Source: Kribbella catacumbae DSM 19601 (GTDB lineage Bacteria > Actinomycetota > Actinomycetes > Propionibacteriales > Kribbellaceae). Taken from it: a stretch of DNA of 64,000 bases. Below are positions 14,364 through 23,435 of the stretch, piece by piece. Position 1 is the stretch's first letter. Every line of letters starts with the position of its first letter. A model generated the notes under the pieces. The model ran no database searches. It had not been told where the DNA came from and worked only from the letters and a program-made list of their open reading frames with translations. The position numbers were made by a program, and so were the translations under genes. The stretch lies in NCBI RefSeq assembly GCF_000372465.1, contig NZ_AQUZ01000005.1:199742-263741 (forward strand), read 5' to 3'.

Positions 14364-15120
14364 TCAGCTAACTGCTGGTCGGACGGTGAGAGTGCCCGCC
14401 TCGGTATCGAGAACTGCCTCAGGTCCAATCGGTACGGCCAGTGCCTCCGGGCCATGTCCGACCGGGAGCCCACCGAGGACTGGGACGTCGAACTTGCCGA
14501 GGCGGTCCTTCAGGACCTCCACGAGTGTCCACCCACGGTCGGTGTAGCCGGCGAAGCCGGTGAACTGACCGAGCGCGACGCCGCGGAGGCCGCGCAGTAC
14601 GCCCGATCGGAGGAGGTGGGTCAGGGAGCGGTCGACCACGCCGAGGCCGACGGTACGGGTGTCTTCGATGAACAAGATGGCGCCGTCGAGGCTCGGCAGG
14701 CCGACGCCGATGGAGCGCGTGAGTGCGCTGAGGGTGCCGCCGATCAGGACGCCGCTGGCTTGACCGTGGACAACCGCCTGTGCGGAAAGGTCATCCGGGT
14801 TGCTGTGCAGGGTGATCGGGTCGGTGGTCATCAGGGCATGTTGCCTGGATGAGCCGTGGATGCCGGCGAGTCCGCACTCTCTCCACAACGCCAGATGCAG
14901 GGTACGTCGCCTGCGCCCGCCCGATCACCGGTTTGGGGTCGCGCCTGACGGCTTCGAAGTCGAGCCGGTGCGCGATGCGGTGAGCACCGTTGCCACTGGC
15001 GCTGACGACGATGGCTCTGACCGCTGGATCTCGGAAGGCGTCGTTCAGCTCATTCTCGTCAGCCGTCGATGAGATCGACCGCACGACGTCGCCGGGCTCG
15101 AGCTTTGGTGCGCGGAGCAT
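14364..15120 (-). pseudogene. Decayed S66 (LD-carboxypeptidase-like) gene copy
   Basis: This is a damaged tandem copy of the intact S66 gene just upstream. The N-terminal part (LRAPKLEPGDVVRSISS) jumps directly to NELNDAFRDPAVRAIVV, losing about 50 residues. After RRDPKPVIG the frame shifts near 14920, and the rest (HLALWRECG in the shifted frame through LTVRPAVS) continues in another frame to 14364. The conserved GFSDITN segment of the intact copy, carrying the nucleophilic Ser, reads GRAQAT here, so the active site is lost as well. Its ATG at 15120 overlaps the stop of the intact gene (TGATG), so the pair was once translationally coupled. Confidence 0.88.
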
Positions 15121-16043
15121 CAACACACCCCCGGAGCGACCGTGAGAGTTCCTGCGGCGGTATCGATCGCTGCCGTCGTACCGAGTGGAACGGCCAACGG
15201 GTCAGGATCGTGGCCCAGTGGCAGACCGCCCAGGATCGGTACGCCGAGTTGGCCGAGCCTGTCTTGCAGCAACTTGGCAGCCGTCCACTCAGAGGTCAGA
15301 GTGTCCCCCACCGCGTCGCCGTTGGGGGTGAGGTGGCCGATGGCAATACCGCGGACGCCGTCGAGGGCGCCCGAAGCGACCAGCTGGAAGAGCACTTGGT
15401 CGAGTGAGTCCAAGCTGCCGACCAGAGCTTCGAATAACAGGATGCCGCCATCCAGGCTTGGCATCCCGGCGCCGACCATGCCCGCGATCGTGCCGAGGTT
15501 GCCGCCGATCAGGAAGCCGGAAGCCACGCCGTCCACCGACACGTCCGAGGAGCTGGCGCCCGGATCGCGATGCAAGATGATCGGTTCCGTGGTCATCAAC
15601 GCTTGGCGGGCCGCTTCCGCGCTGACGCCGAACACCATGCCGTGCAGGCCGACGACCCGGCTGTGGTCCCACAGGGCCAGATGCAGATTGGTGATGTCGC
15701 TGAAGCCGACGACCGGCTTGGGATCGCGTCGTGCCGCCTCGAAGTCGAGATCGTCGATGATCCGGTACGCGCCGGCACCACCGCGGGTCGTGATGATCGC
15801 GCGGACCCCGGGATCTCGCAAGGCGTCATTCAGGTCCGCGAGCCGATCAGCGTCGGTTCCAGCCATGAGCCCGAACTGGTCCAAGGCGTGCTCGCCGACC
15901 TCTACCCGAAGACCCCAGCTCGTCAACGTCGCCACCGCTGCTTCGATCCCTTCGGGAGTCGGGAAGCTGGCGGGCGATACCAGGCGTACGCGGTTTCCGG
16001 GCTTGAGCCGGGGCGGTAGTAGCGCGGTGTCTTGCCTCGTCAT
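15120..16043 (-). CDS. S66-family LD-carboxypeptidase-like protein
   Basis: The 307-residue protein belongs to the S66 family (LdcA/MccF). It begins with RLKPGNRVRLVSPASFPTPE and carries the nucleophile Ser in VVGFSDITNLHLALWD. The Glu and His of the triad are expected in the GGNLGTIAGMVG region and in GLPLGHDPDPLAVPLG. Family members cleave LD-bonds in cytoplasmic muropeptides or hydrolyse microcin C-like peptide-nucleotides. No signal peptide is present. Its ATG overlaps the stop of the upstream mycothiol-type gene (ATGA), and a decayed copy follows. Muropeptide recycling versus peptide-antibiotic immunity cannot be settled from sequence. Confidence 0.87.
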   Translation of the reverse strand: MTRQDTALLPPRLKPGNRVRLVSPASFPTPEGIEAAVATLTSWGLRVEVGEHALDQFGLMAGTDADRLADLNDALRDPGVRAIITTRGGAGAYRIIDDLDFEAARRDPKPVVGFSDITNLHLALWDHSRVVGLHGMVFGVSAEAARQALMTTEPIILHRDPGASSSDVSVDGVASGFLIGGNLGTIAGMVGAGMPSLDGGILLFEALVGSLDSLDQVLFQLVASGALDGVRGIAIGHLTPNGDAVGDTLTSEWTAAKLLQDRLGQLGVPILGGLPLGHDPDPLAVPLGTTAAIDTAAGTLTVAPGVC

Positions 16044-16594
16044 GGGCGGCGGCCGAAGGCGTCGAGGAGGTGGGTCTGGGGTGACGCGTCGGGTGGGAGG
16101 GTGTCGCTCGCTCCGGTGCCGTAGGTGCCCATGGCGCGCATTTCTTCGAGGTGGGGCTCGACCAACGCCCACAAGCCGTTGGCCACCCGGGCGTCGAGGG
16201 TTGAGTCCAGACCGGCACCGATCGCGATGTCCCAGGCGTGGACGACCAGCTCACCGAGGCGGAAACGCAGGAAGGTGTCGACCGAGATATCGCCGCTGGG
16301 GTGATGAAGTGCCAGGGTCGGCTCCGCGCTGGCGAATGCTGCCCGCTGAGCCGCGCAGGAGTTCGTGAGTGCTGCAAGTGGATCGTCACCGAGTTGGTCC
16401 GTATCCAGGTGAGCTGTAGCCGCTGCCGCTGAGGCACCCGACAGCAGCCGTACTGCGAACTTGTTGCCCGCGACCACATGGTCGACGACCTCGCGGACCG
16501 TGATGTCGCTGGGTGTCAGGTTGTCCCACGAACTCGAAGACGCCGAGCCCACCATCCGGACGAGTTGAGCACCGGCCGCCGCGAGAAGGTCCAC
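16040..16594 (-). CDS. TIGR03086/DinB-fold mycothiol-type metal-binding protein
   Basis: The 184-residue protein starts MDLLAAAGAQLVRMVG and has the features of the TIGR03086 group of the mycothiol maleylpyruvate isomerase N-terminal fold. It has a VREVVDHVVAGNKFAVRLL helix with a metal-binding His, and the second helix pair FRLGELVVHAWDIAIGAG with the typical HxWD. Members are thought to be metal-dependent, mycothiol-linked enzymes of unknown reaction. It is the first gene of a coupled pair, its stop overlapping the ATG of the S66 gene. Upstream lies a 569-bp gene-free, repeat-rich region. Confidence 0.85.
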   Translation of the reverse strand: MDLLAAAGAQLVRMVGSASSSSWDNLTPSDITVREVVDHVVAGNKFAVRLLSGASAAAATAHLDTDQLGDDPLAALTNSCAAQRAAFASAEPTLALHHPSGDISVDTFLRFRLGELVVHAWDIAIGAGLDSTLDARVANGLWALVEPHLEEMRAMGTYGTGASDTLPPDASPQTHLLDAFGRRP

Positions 16595-17144: not shown

Positions 17145-17163
17145 TTAGGTTAGCCTCACCTGT
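17145..17163 (+). promoter_or_regulatory. Iron box (IdeR/DmdR-type operator)
   Basis: TTAGGTTAGCCTCACCTGT closely matches the actinobacterial iron-box consensus TWAGGTTAGSCTWACCTWA. It ends immediately before the GTG start of the fusion gene. A TAGCCT hexamer at 17151-17156 lies inside the box and 7 nt before GTG 17164, so bound repressor would cover the -10 region of a leaderless transcript. The ferric-iron importer genes downstream support iron control. Confidence 0.85.
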
Positions 17164-19809
17164 GTGTTCCTGCCCCAAGCCCGGGTGACGGCCGGCGCTG
17201 ACCTGTTGTCCGGCACTGCCGATATCCACCGTGCCGTCCTCGTCGATGCGGCAGGGCCGCTGAGCTATGGAGCGCTGACCGAGCAGGTCGACGCGCTCGC
17301 GGCCAGCCTGCCGGCCGTTCACACTGGGCGGCGGCTGGTGCACGTTTCGCTGACCGCGAAGCGCGAGCGGGTGGTTGGCTACCTGGCCGTTCTCAAGGCT
17401 GGGCATGTCGCTCTGATTACTCCGCCCGAGCATGCGTCCATCACCACCGCCTACCCGCCGGATGTGTGGCTCCGCGACGACGGCTCCTTCGCTGGTGCGA
17501 CCGGAGGCTCGCTGGATCGCGACACCGATCCGCGGCACGAACTTCACCCGGATCTCGCAGTCCTGTTGAGCACCTCCGGGAGCACCGGCTCGCCGAAGCT
17601 GGTGCGACTCAGCGGCACGAATCTCGTCAGCAACGCGGACGCGATCGGAGCGGCGTTGTCGATCAGCCCAGACGACCGGGCAATCACTTCGCTGCCGCTG
17701 CACTACTGCTTCGGCTTGTCGGTCCTACACGCCCAACTCAGGGCCGGCGCGACTGCGGTGCTGTGGCATGGGTCGGTGACCGACCCCGCCTTCGCCGATG
17801 AGTTGCGCGGGAACCGGGTCACTTTGCTGCCTGCAACACCACATGTGGTCGACCTGCTCGACGTACAGGGACTCCTGGACGACTTGCCCTCGCTGCGGCT
17901 GCTCGCCCAGGCCGGTGGCGCGCTACCCGCCGCACGGGTCCGGGAACTGGACGCGCGCGGCAGGGTGGGCGGCTGGGGACTGGCGGTCATGTATGGGCAG
18001 ACCGAGGCGACCGCCCGGATGGCGGTACTGCCACCGGAGCTGGCCGGTCAGTACCCGGACGCCGTGGGCTGGCCGATCGCTGGCTCGGCGTTCCGGCTCG
18101 ACCCAGCGGGCATCGAGCAACCAGTCAATGCAGCGGACGGCCCGGTCGGCGAACTCGTGTTCACCGGTCCCGGCGTGATGCTCGGGTACGCCGAACACCC
18201 CGACGACCTCGCGCTCGGCCGGGTGCAGACCGAATTGCGCACCGGGGATCTGGCCAGGATCAGCGCCGACGGTCTGGTCCGGATCGTCGGCCGGCGCTCC
18301 GACCACGTGAAGATCATGGGCATCCGGATCGACCTCGGCCAGGTCGAGCGTGTGCTCCGCGCCAGCGGCGTCCCGTGCTGTGTCACCGGTACCGACGGGC
18401 AGCTTCAGGTCACCTATCGGCCGTGCGGACAAGAGCCGGCGACCATCCGCGATCAAGCGGCGTCGGCCGCCGGTCTCGGTGCGTCCGTGGTCTCGATCCA
18501 CGAGGTCGCCGACCTCCCGATCCTGCCCAACGGCAAACCGGATCGCCGCGCCTGCGCCGCATTGCACACGACGGATAGCATGCCCACGTTGCACACGACG
18601 GAGGCCACGCCCGCGGAGACCGCGGACGACTCGCTCGCGGCGGTCACCGGCGTCCTCGCACCGCTGGTCGGCGGCGGCGCGATCGACCCCGACCGATCGT
18701 TTGCGGAGCTCGGCGGCGACTCGTTCAACCACGTCATGGCATCTCTCGGGTTGACCCGGCTGATCGGCGACCTGCCGCCCGACTGGCACCATCGGCCGGT
18801 CCGCGATCTCGCCGCACTGGCCGACCGGCGTCAGCAGAGCCGGCCGGTACGCCGTACCGTGACGCAGCGAGTCGAGACCACCGTGGTCCTGCGTGGGGTG
18901 GCAGTTGTCACGATCTGCGGCAGCCATGTCGGACTGTTCCGGCTGGCGGGTGGTGCGCACATCCTGCTCGCGGTCGCCGGATTCCTGTTCGCCAGGTATG
19001 TCCTCACCGCCCAGAAGACGTCCGATCGGGCCCGGCGGACCACGCGAGCCGCGATCGGCATCGCCGTCCCGGCGATGATCGTGGCCGCCGTGATGGTGTT
19101 CGGTTCCCGATCGATCCACTGGTCGAATCTGGCCCTGGTGCATTGGCTCGTACGGCCGCGGGACATCAACATCTTCTGGTTCGTGGAAGCGCTGCTGATG
19201 TTGTCGGTGGCAACGACCACGGTGCTCGCCTTGCCGCGGGTGCGGTCGGCGTACGCCGCAGACCCGTGGCGTACCGCGATGGCCGCGCTGGCCGTTCTGC
19301 TGGTACCGCGTTATCTGGTGCTCGCACTGGTCGAAGGACCGGTGCGGGGTCTGCCGGGTACGGTGGCCTGGCTGTTCGTCGCCGGGATCGCGATGGCGGT
19401 CGCGGACACCCGGCGACGCCGTGTCGTCACGGCCATCGTCGCGGCCGCCGCGACCATCGGATTCTTCCCCGAGTGGGAACGCAACTTGACCATCCTGGTC
19501 GGACTGGTGCTGTTGACGTTGCTGCCCACGGTGCCGGTTCCTGGCTTGCTCGTACGGCCGCTCGGAGTACTGGCCGCTGCCTCGTTGCACGTGTACCTGG
19601 TGCAGTTCCAGGTGTTCGCGTTCTTCGATCTCCCGATCGTCCAGTTCCTAGTCGCAATCGTCGCCGGCCTCGCGTTCTGCGCGGCCAGCACCTACGCGCT
19701 GCGCCGGCTGCCGTTGCCGGATCCGACTGGTGAGACCCTGATCCGTCGTCTCGTGACGGCACTGAATTCTGTGAGAGAGGATCGACGATGCGTCGACGCA
19801 CGTTCCTGA
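17164..19809 (+). CDS. Adenylation-carrier-membrane acyltransferase fusion protein
   Basis: The 881-residue protein joins three modules. An adenylation domain (about 1-465) has LSTSGSTGSPK with K145, YGQTEAT, RTGDL, GRRSDHVKIMG and the catalytic NGKPDR with K458. A carrier domain (about 485-560) has LGGDSF with the phosphopantetheine Ser520. An Acyltransferase-3-type membrane domain (about 565-860) has the R-x10-H motif in LRGVAVVTICGSH and some ten hydrophobic segments. It probably activates an acid, loads it on its own carrier and transfers it to an acceptor at the membrane. The last 22 bases overlap the iron-binding lipoprotein gene, and the iron box sits directly upstream. Substrate is unknown; GTG 17185 is an alternative start. 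Confidence 0.85.
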   Translation: MFLPQARVTAGADLLSGTADIHRAVLVDAAGPLSYGALTEQVDALAASLPAVHTGRRLVHVSLTAKRERVVGYLAVLKAGHVALITPPEHASITTAYPPDVWLRDDGSFAGATGGSLDRDTDPRHELHPDLAVLLSTSGSTGSPKLVRLSGTNLVSNADAIGAALSISPDDRAITSLPLHYCFGLSVLHAQLRAGATAVLWHGSVTDPAFADELRGNRVTLLPATPHVVDLLDVQGLLDDLPSLRLLAQAGGALPAARVRELDARGRVGGWGLAVMYGQTEATARMAVLPPELAGQYPDAVGWPIAGSAFRLDPAGIEQPVNAADGPVGELVFTGPGVMLGYAEHPDDLALGRVQTELRTGDLARISADGLVRIVGRRSDHVKIMGIRIDLGQVERVLRASGVPCCVTGTDGQLQVTYRPCGQEPATIRDQAASAAGLGASVVSIHEVADLPILPNGKPDRRACAALHTTDSMPTLHTTEATPAETADDSLAAVTGVLAPLVGGGAIDPDRSFAELGGDSFNHVMASLGLTRLIGDLPPDWHHRPVRDLAALADRRQQSRPVRRTVTQRVETTVVLRGVAVVTICGSHVGLFRLAGGAHILLAVAGFLFARYVLTAQKTSDRARRTTRAAIGIAVPAMIVAAVMVFGSRSIHWSNLALVHWLVRPRDINIFWFVEALLMLSVATTTVLALPRVRSAYAADPWRTAMAALAVLLVPRYLVLALVEGPVRGLPGTVAWLFVAGIAMAVADTRRRRVVTAIVAAAATIGFFPEWERNLTILVGLVLLTLLPTVPVPGLLVRPLGVLAAASLHVYLVQFQVFAFFDLPIVQFLVAIVAGLAFCAASTYALRRLPLPDPTGETLIRRLVTALNSVREDRRCVDARS

Positions 19810-20813
19810 CCGGCCTGGGAGCCATCGGCACGATGAGCCTGGTGGGGTGCGGGTCGAAGGACAAGGACGAGTACAAGGCCGACCCCGGCTCGCTCCAGGT
19901 CTACTCCTCGCAGCACGAGAACGTCACCAAGGCCTGGGCTGAGGCGTTCACCGTGGCGACCGGTATCAAGGTGCAGATCCGCAAGGGCTCCGACTCCTCG
20001 ATGGGTCACCAGATCGTGGCGGAGGGAGCCTCGTCGCCCGCGGACGTGTTCCTCACCGAGAACAGTCCCGCGATGACCTTGGTCGAGCGGGGCAAGCTGC
20101 TCGCACCGCTCGAGGAGGCGACCCGGCGCCAGGTGCCGGCCAACCTGACCCCGTCGTCGAAGACCTGGACCTCGATCGCCGCCCGGTCCACCGTGCTGGT
20201 CTACAACCCGGCCAAGCTCCCCAAGGCAGAGCTGCCGAAGTCCATGATGGAACTCGCCGGACCGGACTGGAAGGACCGCTGGGGTTGTGCGCCCGGCGGT
20301 GCGGACTTCCAGGCCATCGTCGCCGGAATGCTCGCCGGCCAGGGTGAGCAGAAGACGACCGAGTGGCTGAAAGGCCTGAAGACCAACGCCCGGGCGCTGC
20401 AGAACAACATCGCCACGATGAAATCGGTGAATGCCGGCGAGATCCCGTGCGGCGTGATCTACCACTACTACTGGTACCGCGACCAGGCCGGCACCAAGGA
20501 AGGTAGTGGCAACACCGCGCTGCACTACTTCCGCAACCAGGACCCGGGCGCGTTCGTGTCGCTGTCGGGTGGCGCGGTGCTGGCCGGGTCGAAGAAGCCT
20601 GAGGAGGCGCGCAAGTTCCTCGCCTTCGTCACCAGCCCTGCCGGCCAGAAGGTGCTCGTCGACTCCAAGTCCATGGAGTACGCCGTCGGCACCGGAGTCG
20701 CCTCCGCGCCGGCGCTGCCGCCGTTGAGCACCTTGCAGGCGCCGCCGGTCGACCCGTTCGCGCTGAACTCCGACAAGGTCAGCACGCTGATGACTGATGC
20801 CGGCATTCTCTGA
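19788..20813 (+). CDS. Ferric-iron ABC transporter substrate-binding lipoprotein
   Basis: The 341-residue protein is an FbpA/IdiA-type iron-binding protein. Its signal region combines a twin-arginine motif (RRRTFL) with a lipobox ending LVGC, so it is probably a Tat-exported lipoprotein anchored at C20. The mature part begins with LQVYSSQHENVTKAW and has the Tyr-rich IYHYYWYRD segment, where FbpA proteins place their paired Tyr iron ligands. It captures Fe(III) outside the membrane and feeds the permease encoded next. The gene overlaps the fusion gene upstream by 22 bases and the permease gene downstream by 17, indicating one transcript under the iron box. Confidence 0.92.
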   Translation: MRRRTFLTGLGAIGTMSLVGCGSKDKDEYKADPGSLQVYSSQHENVTKAWAEAFTVATGIKVQIRKGSDSSMGHQIVAEGASSPADVFLTENSPAMTLVERGKLLAPLEEATRRQVPANLTPSSKTWTSIAARSTVLVYNPAKLPKAELPKSMMELAGPDWKDRWGCAPGGADFQAIVAGMLAGQGEQKTTEWLKGLKTNARALQNNIATMKSVNAGEIPCGVIYHYYWYRDQAGTKEGSGNTALHYFRNQDPGAFVSLSGGAVLAGSKKPEEARKFLAFVTSPAGQKVLVDSKSMEYAVGTGVASAPALPPLSTLQAPPVDPFALNSDKVSTLMTDAGIL

Positions 20814-22392
20814 CCCCTCCGGCGCCGTCCTCCCGTACGACGGCCCGGGGGCGCCATCGGTCCGGGCCCGCCGGTCCACGCCGACTCCGTGGCTCGTCGT
20901 GGTGGCCGCGTTGCTGGTCGCAGTACTGATGCTGGCCCCGGTGCTGGTCGTTTTCGGTCAGGCGACTGCGGCCGGTGCCGCTGAGGCGTCCAGGCTGCTG
21001 TTGCGGCCGAGGACTGCCGAACTACTCCGCAACACCTTGGTACTGGTGGTGCTCACTGTCCCCATCACCGTGGTACTCGGGTGTGCCGCGGCCTGGCTTG
21101 TGGAGCGGACGACGCTGGCCGCCGCCGGTGTCTGGCGCACTCTGCTGCTGACCCCGCTCGCCATTCCCGCGTTCGTGAGCAGCTATGCCTGGACCTCGGT
21201 ACTGCCGTCGGTGCAGGGGCTCGGTGGTGCGGTGTTCGTTACTGCTTTGGCCTACTACCCGTTTGTCTTCCTCCCGGCGGCCGCCCTGCTGCGAGCGCTC
21301 GACCAGGGTCACCTCGACGCCGCCCGCTCACTCGGTGCGTCCGGCCTCGGCGCGGTACTCCGGGTGGTCGCGCCGCAGCTGCGCCCTGCCGTCGCCGGCG
21401 GTGCGTTGCTGGTGGCGCTGCACCTCCTCGCCGAGTTCGGTGTGCTGCAGATGATGCGATTCCCGACGTTCACGACGGCGATCCTGCAGCAGTTCGCGGT
21501 CGGGTTCAGCAACAGCGCCGGCAGCCTGCTGGCCGCGACGCTCGTGGTGCTATGCCTCGGCCTGCTGGCCGTCGAGGTACTCCTGCGCGGCCGGGCCCGC
21601 ATCTCCAGACTCGGCCCCGGAACCCGGCAGCAGCCAGTCGCCCACCGCCTCGGTGTGTGGACGGTGCCGGCCATCGGCGCGCTGGCCATCCTGGTCGGAC
21701 TGTCGGTCGTGGTACCCGCGGGAATCGTGCTGCGCTGGCTGTTGCGGGCGATCAGCGCCGGCGCGGTAGACGCCGTACCGTTGCTCTCAGCAACTGGCTC
21801 GACGATTGGCCTGGCAGTACTCGCGGGATTGGCCGCGACCGTCGCCGCACTGCCCGGAGCCTGGCTACTGCACAGGTACCCGTCCCGGCTGGCCGCCGGT
21901 TTGGAGCGAATGACCTACGTCGCGAGCGCCCTGCCTGGCGTGGTGATCGGACTGGCGCTGGTGACTCTGGCCGTGCAGTGGGCCCGGCCGGTGTACCAGA
22001 CCGCAGCGCTGGCGGTGGCGGCGTACACAGTCCTCTTCCTGCCCCGGGCGATGGTGGCCTGGCGGTCCGGTCTGGCCGCGGCACCGACCGAGCTGGTCGA
22101 GGCATCGCGGTCGCTCGGGGTATCCGGGCCGGGTACCTTTGCCCGCGTGGTGCTCCCGCTCGTACTCCCCTCCGCGCTGACCGGATTCGTGCTGGTCTTC
22201 CTCGCGACGGCGACCGAGCTGACCGCGACCCTGCTGCTCGCCCCGACCGGCACCGAGACGCTGGCGACCGCGTTCTGGTCGGCGAGCGACGAGCTGGACT
22301 ACGTGGCGAGCGCGCCGTACGCCGCGGCGATGATCGCCCTGTCGGCCCCACTCACCGTGCTGCTGCGCCGGCAGATCCTGGACCAGCGATGA
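20797..22392 (+). CDS. Ferric-iron ABC transporter permease
   Basis: The 531-residue membrane protein is a duplicated BPD-type permease (FbpB/SfuB type) with two six-helix halves. The EAA-like loops that contact the ATPase are ALDQGHLDAARSLGASGLG (about residue 167-185) and ELVEASRSLGVSGPGTF in the second half. It forms the membrane channel for Fe(III). ATG 20797 overlaps the end of the binding-protein gene by 17 bases, and its stop overlaps the ATPase start (ATGA). A Pro-rich, charged cytoplasmic lead of about 30 residues precedes the first helix. Confidence 0.93.
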   Translation: MPAFSDPSGAVLPYDGPGAPSVRARRSTPTPWLVVVAALLVAVLMLAPVLVVFGQATAAGAAEASRLLLRPRTAELLRNTLVLVVLTVPITVVLGCAAAWLVERTTLAAAGVWRTLLLTPLAIPAFVSSYAWTSVLPSVQGLGGAVFVTALAYYPFVFLPAAALLRALDQGHLDAARSLGASGLGAVLRVVAPQLRPAVAGGALLVALHLLAEFGVLQMMRFPTFTTAILQQFAVGFSNSAGSLLAATLVVLCLGLLAVEVLLRGRARISRLGPGTRQQPVAHRLGVWTVPAIGALAILVGLSVVVPAGIVLRWLLRAISAGAVDAVPLLSATGSTIGLAVLAGLAATVAALPGAWLLHRYPSRLAAGLERMTYVASALPGVVIGLALVTLAVQWARPVYQTAALAVAAYTVLFLPRAMVAWRSGLAAAPTELVEASRSLGVSGPGTFARVVLPLVLPSALTGFVLVFLATATELTATLLLAPTGTETLATAFWSASDELDYVASAPYAAAMIALSAPLTVLLRRQILDQR

Positions 22393-23435
22393 CGAGCGCC
22401 GGCATCACGATCACTGGTCTGACCGTTGGATACGGCGGTCCAGCAGTGCTCGACCAGGTCAGTCTGCAGGTGCGTCCAGGCGGCACCACGGCCGTACTCG
22501 GTCCGTCCGGCAGCGGCAAGACCACGCTCCTGCGGGCACTGGCCGGCTTCGTCCGGCCGGCGCACGGCCAGATCGAGATCGGTGCGAAGGTCCTCACCGA
22601 CGAGAAGGGGATGGTCGCGCCCGAACGCCGCGGGATCGGCTACGTCCGCCAGGACGGCGCGCTGTTCCCGCATCTCGATGTCACCGGCAACATCCTCTTC
22701 GGACTCCCCCGGGCCGAACGCCGCCGAGCGGCCCAGGTCGGCCCGCTGCTCGAACTCGTCGGACTGTCCCCCGACCTGGCCCGGCGCCGGCCAGACCAGT
22801 TGTCCGGCGGTCAGCAACAGCGGGTCGCGCTGGCCCGGGCGCTGGCCCGCGAGCCTGCCGTCGTACTGCTCGACGAGCCGTTCTCGTCCCTGGACACCGC
22901 GTTGCGCGCCGCCACCCGCGAGGCCACCTTGACCGCGCTCAGAGAACGCGGCGCTACGACCGTCCTGGTCACTCACGACCAGGCCGAGGCACTCTCGTTC
23001 GCCGACCAGGTGGCGGTGATGTTCGACGGCCGGTTCGCTCAGATCGGCACCCCTGCTGAGGTGTACGACGCCCCCGCAACACCCGAGGTAGGCGCATTCC
23101 TCGGCGACACGATGCTGCTACCCGGCCTGGCCGACGGCCGCGTCGTCGACTGTGTACTGGGCAAACTCGACCTCACCGAACCGGCCACCGGCGACGTGCT
23201 CGCCATGATCCGGCCAGAGCAGCTCGTGCTGGGTGCTCCGTCGGGTCTGACGGCACGGGTAGTCTCCGTCGCGTACCACGGCCCGGACGCCATGGTCCGA
23301 CTCGACCTCACCGACACCACGACGCGCCTGGTGGCGCGGGTCCCGGGTCACGACGCACCTGAGAACGGCGACCTGGTCGGCGTCGTGGTCCCAGGCGCAG
23401 TCCGCGCATACCCGAAACCAGCTGGGTCGGGCTGA
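22389..23435 (+). CDS. Ferric-iron ABC transporter ATP-binding protein
   Basis: The 348-residue ATPase has Walker A GPSGSGKTT (38-46), the signature LSGGQQQRVALARAL, and Walker B VVLLDEPFSSLD. A TOBE-like C-terminal domain (about 255-345, MIRPEQLVLG) is typical of FbpC-type importers. It powers the iron permease encoded immediately upstream; the ATG at 22389 overlaps that gene's stop. It is the last gene of the iron-box operon, and the next gene is on the other strand. No terminator hairpin was evident in the 75-bp gap after it. Confidence 0.95.
   Translation: MTSAGITITGLTVGYGGPAVLDQVSLQVRPGGTTAVLGPSGSGKTTLLRALAGFVRPAHGQIEIGAKVLTDEKGMVAPERRGIGYVRQDGALFPHLDVTGNILFGLPRAERRRAAQVGPLLELVGLSPDLARRRPDQLSGGQQQRVALARALAREPAVVLLDEPFSSLDTALRAATREATLTALRERGATTVLVTHDQAEALSFADQVAVMFDGRFAQIGTPAEVYDAPATPEVGAFLGDTMLLPGLADGRVVDCVLGKLDLTEPATGDVLAMIRPEQLVLGAPSGLTARVVSVAYHGPDAMVRLDLTDTTTRLVARVPGHDAPENGDLVGVVVPGAVRAYPKPAGSG

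Follow-up and report, generated by a model that had tools for sequence, protein, structure and literature searches.

In a 64-kb stretch of DNA from Kribbella catacumbae DSM 19601 (the window), one gene encodes an 881-residue protein that joins an adenylation (A) domain, a carrier (T) domain and a transmembrane acyltransferase-3 (AT3) domain, and this A-T-AT3 enzyme is inherited together with a predicted ferric importer in some actinobacteria. An iron box is followed by the A-T-AT3 gene and then by fbpA, fbpB and fbpC, all on the plus strand at positions 17145-23435 of the window. Each importer gene overlaps the one before it, by 22, 17 and 4 bases for fbpA, fbpB and fbpC, respectively, in agreement with an earlier reading of the sequence (the original prediction) that had placed FbpABC genes in overlapping frames behind the fusion. 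There is almost an even chance, in our estimate, that the locus represents a new Gram-positive route of iron acquisition, in which one enzyme would make an envelope-held or secreted ferric ligand and a dedicated Sfu/Fbp importer would draw iron from it. The more specific reading preferred here, which we hold slightly more tentatively, is that the enzyme, encoded in an operon behind an iron box, acylates an envelope molecule and thereby turns it into a ferric ligand for the importer.

A first scan yielded 40 loci and was biased, as its search patterns had been derived from the window protein. The 29 full-length loci (L009-L036 and L038) were counted; L037 and L039, which were cut by contig ends, and L040-L048, which comprised the A domain only, were dropped. 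The fbp genes adjoined the fusion in 26 of the 29. Because of this bias, a wider draw of 396 actinobacterial genomes was analysed, 19 of which had a match. The 15 genomes in which the match reached the AT3 part were counted, including G218 with a match in two pieces, and G165, G189, G204 and G338 were dropped. The fusion adjoined fbp genes in 6 of these 15 genomes. An FbpA match at an E value of up to 1e-30 was present in 13 of these 15 genomes, compared with 96 of the 381 others; Fisher values for this comparison take no account of kinship. The nearest FbpA sequences (E up to 1e-100, identity 53-100%) came from six genomes, that of the window among them, and all six belonged to the 15; in two of the six, G085 and G008, the fusion and FbpA genes were nevertheless unlinked, and in G008 the lone fusion and the distant fbpABC each had an iron box of their own.

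Within the genus Kribbella, the fusion was present in 7 of 38 genomes, and the same seven had FbpA, encoded beside the fusion. The original prediction was to fall if homologous fusions never stood beside iron genes; it withstood this test, as such neighbours were found in both samples and in all fusion-bearing Kribbella genomes. One of these genomes, G430, contained a distant version (43% identical in the fusion, 35% in FbpA), with a complete fbpABC set divergent to the fusion and two iron boxes between them. In a tree of 44 sequences, one large clade of 25 rows had fbpABC downstream in 23, L014 and L016 being the exceptions, and separate linkages appeared elsewhere; the linkage recurred in several gene arrangements and orders. 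In this material L063-L065 duplicate L009-L011, and fbpC was without separate confirmation in L058, L060 and L062 and lay beyond the contig end in L036.

The iron box of the window, TTAGGTTAGCCTCACCTGT, was scored against the 19-base IdeR/DmdR consensus TTAGGTTAGSCTAACCTAA. It was the only site with up to 3 mismatches in the window, where shuffling gave a chance expectation of 0.00-0.01. The same pattern occurred at 11 places in the whole 9.6-Mb genome (22 strand hits; reversed control, 0). Six of the other boxes stood beside genes for a lysine/ornithine monooxygenase, a heme oxygenase, two Peripla_BP_2 proteins and two siderophore-interacting proteins, and one further box beside that of a generic ABC ATPase; two boxes near C9:144800 and one on C84 fell outside the neighbour assignment. 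The genome encodes three DtxR-type regulators, and we infer that the operon is under IdeR/DmdR-type control, with repression when iron is plentiful. The GTG start codon at 17164 abuts the 3' end of the box, and in the Kribbella loci L009, L010 and L011 a GTG likewise follows, 18-19 bases from where the box begins. With the box running right up to the start codon in the window and in other Kribbella, a leaderless transcript is possible. The other boxes of the genome (L080-L089) also mark a siderophore region linked to a non-ribosomal peptide synthetase (NRPS) on contig C9, besides the heme oxygenase and the siderophore-interacting proteins.

Among relatives, 29 of 42 loci, a set without the window locus and without L057 (A domain only), had a box with up to 5 mismatches within -250 to +60 of the A-T-AT3 gene. 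The background was 5 sites in 824,545 other, flanking bases, of which one lay 5' of the second A-T-AT3 gene in L015 and two lay 5' of fbpA in L060 and L061. The iron box that had originally been predicted before the gene was therefore seen again both in the window and among its relatives. It was kept in 7 of 11 loci in which the A-T-AT3 gene had no adjacent fbp genes, namely in five of the eight wider-draw loci with a lone gene (L049, L050, L051, L053 and L055) and in L014 and L016. A box before a lone gene is consistent with envelope remodelling in iron starvation, in which a wall glycan or lipid would change in charge or permeability, no iron ligand would be made and fbpABC would simply belong to the same regulon. 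AT3 proteins are indeed described as mostly modifying surface glycans (PMC9558356). This explanation is nevertheless distinctly unlikely, because co-presence with FbpA is exact across the 38 Kribbella genomes and linkage recurs with the genes in different orders, which speaks for a closer tie than common regulation.

The residues that the original prediction had pointed out in the single 881-residue protein were all in place. K458, the catalytic lysine of the NRPS-like A domain, S520 of the carrier motif GGDS, and R577 and H588 of the R-x10-H motif in the first helix of the AT3 domain were invariant in 34 homologues. The AMP-binding core is present, and AMP-binding was the sole Pfam match reported for the window protein, even at an E value of 10. 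At E up to 0.1, 24 of the 34 homologues matched the carrier model PF00550 and 25 the AT3 model PF01757; neither model was reported for the window copy. A family profile gave its highest scores to two-module NRPS chains such as LgrA, and the predicted structure of the A domain matches A domains.

The closest sequence to the A domain in the PDB was VinN, a beta-amino-acid ligase. R285 of the window protein, invariant in the 34 homologues, aligns with VinN R331, which we take to be the carboxylate-binding residue, and F183 aligns with VinN F231. In contrast, VinN S299 is replaced by A250 and the loop is one residue longer. R331 is called key in the account of VinN consulted, where D230 (D235 of GrsA) is given as the aspartate that binds the amino group (PMC11253843). 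The site of D230 is occupied by C182 in the window protein and by C, S or T in all 34 homologues. With this aspartate replaced, the pocket sequence makes an ordinary amino acid unlikely as the substrate. A dicarboxylate was first favoured on account of R285. This was weakened when the motif MYGQTEATAR proved to be present as well in ligases that stand alone, from Lachnospiraceae, Bacteroidia and Bdellovibrionia; being common to stand-alone ligases from other phyla, R285 is uninformative on the acid. One stand-alone ligase with this motif (L047:9039-10850) lies beside a gene for a DegT-type sugar aminotransferase, likely in a polysaccharide cluster.

For the AT3 domain, acyl transfer across the membrane is predicted. 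In addition to the R-x10-H motif, an RxxR region was recognised at the cytoplasmic face of helix 3; R622, R625 and R628 were kept in 33, 20 and 30 of the 34 homologues, so that this region is looser in the A-T-AT3 family. With the model of the domain as query, Foldseek retrieved nothing from the PDB at E up to 0.001, and one viral protein matched the model at E 3.4e-4. A second comparison with VIA-align matched the model to HGSNAT and GWT1, which have the TmAT fold, and the modelled C-terminal domain resembles that fold. The R-x10-H motif, the RxxR region and the TmAT-like model are shared with the AT3/TmAT superfamily (OafB, OatA, OpgC, IcaC and HGSNAT), from which the A-T-AT3 protein differs by its own N-terminal adenylation and carrier domains. 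The fusion partners named for AT3 proteins in the texts consulted are SGNH, racemase and NRF (PMC9833829, PMC12423673, PMC9558356).

By sequence, the nearest relative of FbpA was YfuA (E 3.2e-115), with SfuA third. H43, E91, Y227 and Y228, as read from the sequence, stand at approximately the spacing of known iron ligands, and His, Glu, Tyr and Tyr are the ligands named for ferric-binding proteins (PMC3534580). No NCBIfam equivalog cut-off was reached by the importer proteins among the matches listed. From their sequences, fbpABC is predicted to encode a Sfu/Fbp-type ferric importer. The same three genes make up the SfuABC, YfuABC and FbpABC systems; here, in contrast, the set overlaps the gene of an acyltransferase fusion and is inherited along with it.

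We propose that, when iron runs short, the regulator would come off the box and allow expression of the operon. The A domain would then activate a small carboxylic acid and charge its own carrier arm, which would reach into the AT3 pore from its cytoplasmic mouth. Transfer of the acyl group through the membrane to an outside acceptor would follow, in the manner of known AT3 proteins; for OafB, the acyl group of acyl-CoA is modelled as moving in this way to an outside acceptor (PMC9833829). The acylated envelope molecule would bind Fe(III) at the cell surface and hand the iron to FbpA. That a surface or metallophore-like molecule is acylated and iron then imported had also been suggested originally, and for us, too, it is what we infer. 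Our preference for an envelope-held ligand to a secreted siderophore follows from the description of SfuABC/FbpABC importers as transporters that take up free ferric ion (PMC3534580), not whole chelates.

The same description argues against a secreted metallophore made in one step, for which a soluble acceptor would be acylated and the product would leave the cell, bind Fe(III) and return it to FbpA. Such a product would fit the iron box, the co-inheritance and the phosphopantetheinyl transferase-like (PPTase-like) neighbours of relatives (see below) too; moreover, a single carrier module is reminiscent of a minimal NRPS, and AT3 proteins are stated to acylate secreted small molecules such as macrolides as well (PMC9558356). 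However, no exporter was among the recurring neighbours named, in an annotation that is not exhaustive, and IucA/IucC genes and NRPS-linked siderophore genes are already present in this genome. This makes a secreted metallophore rather unlikely. Alternatively, the enzyme could alter an imported or foreign siderophore (a xenosiderophore) and so release its iron to FbpA. Although this would also account for the linkage to a ferric importer, no siderophore-type binding protein was among the recurring neighbours named, and we know of no case in which acylation serves as the iron-release step of a siderophore; we regard it as very improbable.

Several observations weigh against acylation of an envelope molecule into a ferric ligand. 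In 8 of the 15 genomes of the wider draw, no fbp genes were seen beside the fusion (one being G143, in which one flank is short); in a ninth, G218, a contig break at the locus leaves the linkage undecidable. Two of the 15 had no FbpA match at E up to 1e-30. Thirteen of the 42 loci lacked a box with up to 5 mismatches near the A-T-AT3 gene, L060 and L061 having one 5' of fbpA instead. The unlinked genomes and the missing boxes would also suit a linkage due to chance or hitch-hiking, with no role of the fusion in iron metabolism, yet this is hardly credible in view of the box kept in most loci without adjacent fbp genes, the several arrangements and the identical set of seven Kribbella genomes. 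As regards the chemistry, the AT3 proteins studied use acyl-CoA, and a review argues against an acyl carrier protein as donor (PMC9558356); the built-in carrier of the A-T-AT3 protein would be an exception to this rule. Finally, no plain acceptor-making enzyme was among the recurring neighbours named.

The original prediction had likened the enzyme to a one-piece version of DltA, DltC and DltB. The logic holds, as in both cases a ligase loads a carrier and the carrier feeds a membrane acyltransferase. The likeness does not extend to kinship: DltB is described as an MBOAT protein, with a fold distinct from that of AT3/TmAT proteins (PMC12423673), whereas the R-x10-H motif and the TmAT-like model place the enzyme near the latter. 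It further differs from the Dlt pathway in being one protein and in its pocket, in which C182 stands in for the amino-group aspartate. With NRPS-like single modules (A-T-R carboxylate reductases and their kin) it shares the A and T domains and, in relatives, a PPTase-like neighbour; unlike these, it ends in a transmembrane acyltransferase.

The features of the locus are listed in Table 1. Promoter and terminator scans gave no useful result.

Table 1. Features of the A-T-AT3/fbpABC locus (positions in the 64-kb window)
Feature	Position	Strand	Evidence
Iron box, IdeR/DmdR-type	17145..17163	+	3 mismatches to TTAGGTTAGSCTAACCTAA; conserved upstream of relatives' genes
A-T-AT3 protein, 881 aa, GTG start	17164..19809	+	Open reading frame; family of full-length homologues
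Adenylation (A) domain, approx. residues 1-470	17164..18573	+	PF00501, E 5.7e-42; closest PDB sequence VinN; predicted structure matches A domains
A-domain codon R285	18016-18018	+	
A-domain codon K458	18535-18537	+	
Carrier (T) domain, approx. residues 484-560	18613..18843	+	GGDS520 codon 18721-18723; S520 invariant in 34
AT3 domain, approx. residues 571-850	18874..19713	+	R577 codon 18892-18894; H588 codon 18925-18927
fbpA/sfuA-like, ferric-binding lipoprotein, 341 aa	19788..20813	+	Lipobox-like LVGC; H43, E91, Y227, Y228
fbpB, two-unit permease, 531 aa	20797..22392	+	PF00528, two stretches
fbpC, ATPase with TOBE domain, 348 aa	22389..23435	+	PF00005 and PF08402

A PPTase-like gene, of the carrier-priming kind, was the divergent neighbour in 22 of 43 loci, L014 and L016 included. 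Five of these genes were tested and four matched PF22624, two of them slightly under the Pfam cut-off. In the window, no PPTase-like gene was found beside the A-T-AT3 gene. Neighbours outside the operon that recurred in at least 3 loci were mostly common to Janibacter genomes alone (aminotransferase, VanW-like, SBP_bac_5, BipA, PIG-L, GNAT, flavin reductase and citrate synthase), which we read as local synteny; the named neighbours are not exhaustive, those of L049-L062 having been listed without annotation. The citrate synthase gene lies up to about 7 kb from the A-T-AT3 gene in the Janibacter loci L020, L023, L024 and L028 and in L016 (L016:1907-3040). Citrate was considered as the acid on this account and not adopted; the gene stands among apparent housekeeping genes, in what is probably housekeeping synteny, and the lead is weak.

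In Micromonospora fulviviridis (L015:9935-18859), two A-T-AT3 genes flank one fbpABC set, and the second of them has its own iron box 29 bases upstream. In Gemmobacter (Pseudomonadota; L038:9926-14066), the A-T-AT3 gene lies beside an amino-acid-type ABC transporter with SBP_bac_3, and no iron box was found there. A protein of 1132 aa with A-T-AT3 and SBP domains (P0069) was considered as a gene fusion. It was taken as a frameshift product of overlapping genes, because the stretch before the SBP part was by eye unlike that of relatives, and was left unused as evidence. Elsewhere in the window, an intact gene for an S66 LD-carboxypeptidase is present on the minus strand at 15120-16172, in the region 14364-16172, and adjacent to it is a second copy, also on the minus strand, the halves of which lie in separate open reading frames (14791-15126 and 14364-14888) and which is probably broken.

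Taken singly, the parts of the system are all of known kinds. For the combination, its regulation and its co-inheritance, no description was found in the open-licence literature, judged by titles and the beginnings of abstracts among the matches listed. FbpABC importers are best known from Gram-negative bacteria, in which the outer membrane delivers iron to the periplasm; how Gram-positive bacteria feed an importer of this type is, as we read the field, less clear. If the proposal is true, a dedicated, co-inherited enzyme would offer an answer to this question. In addition, the AT3/TmAT superfamily would gain its first carrier-fed member, and if AT3 proteins can be fed by a carrier arm, their acyl range would be opened to anything that an A domain activates.

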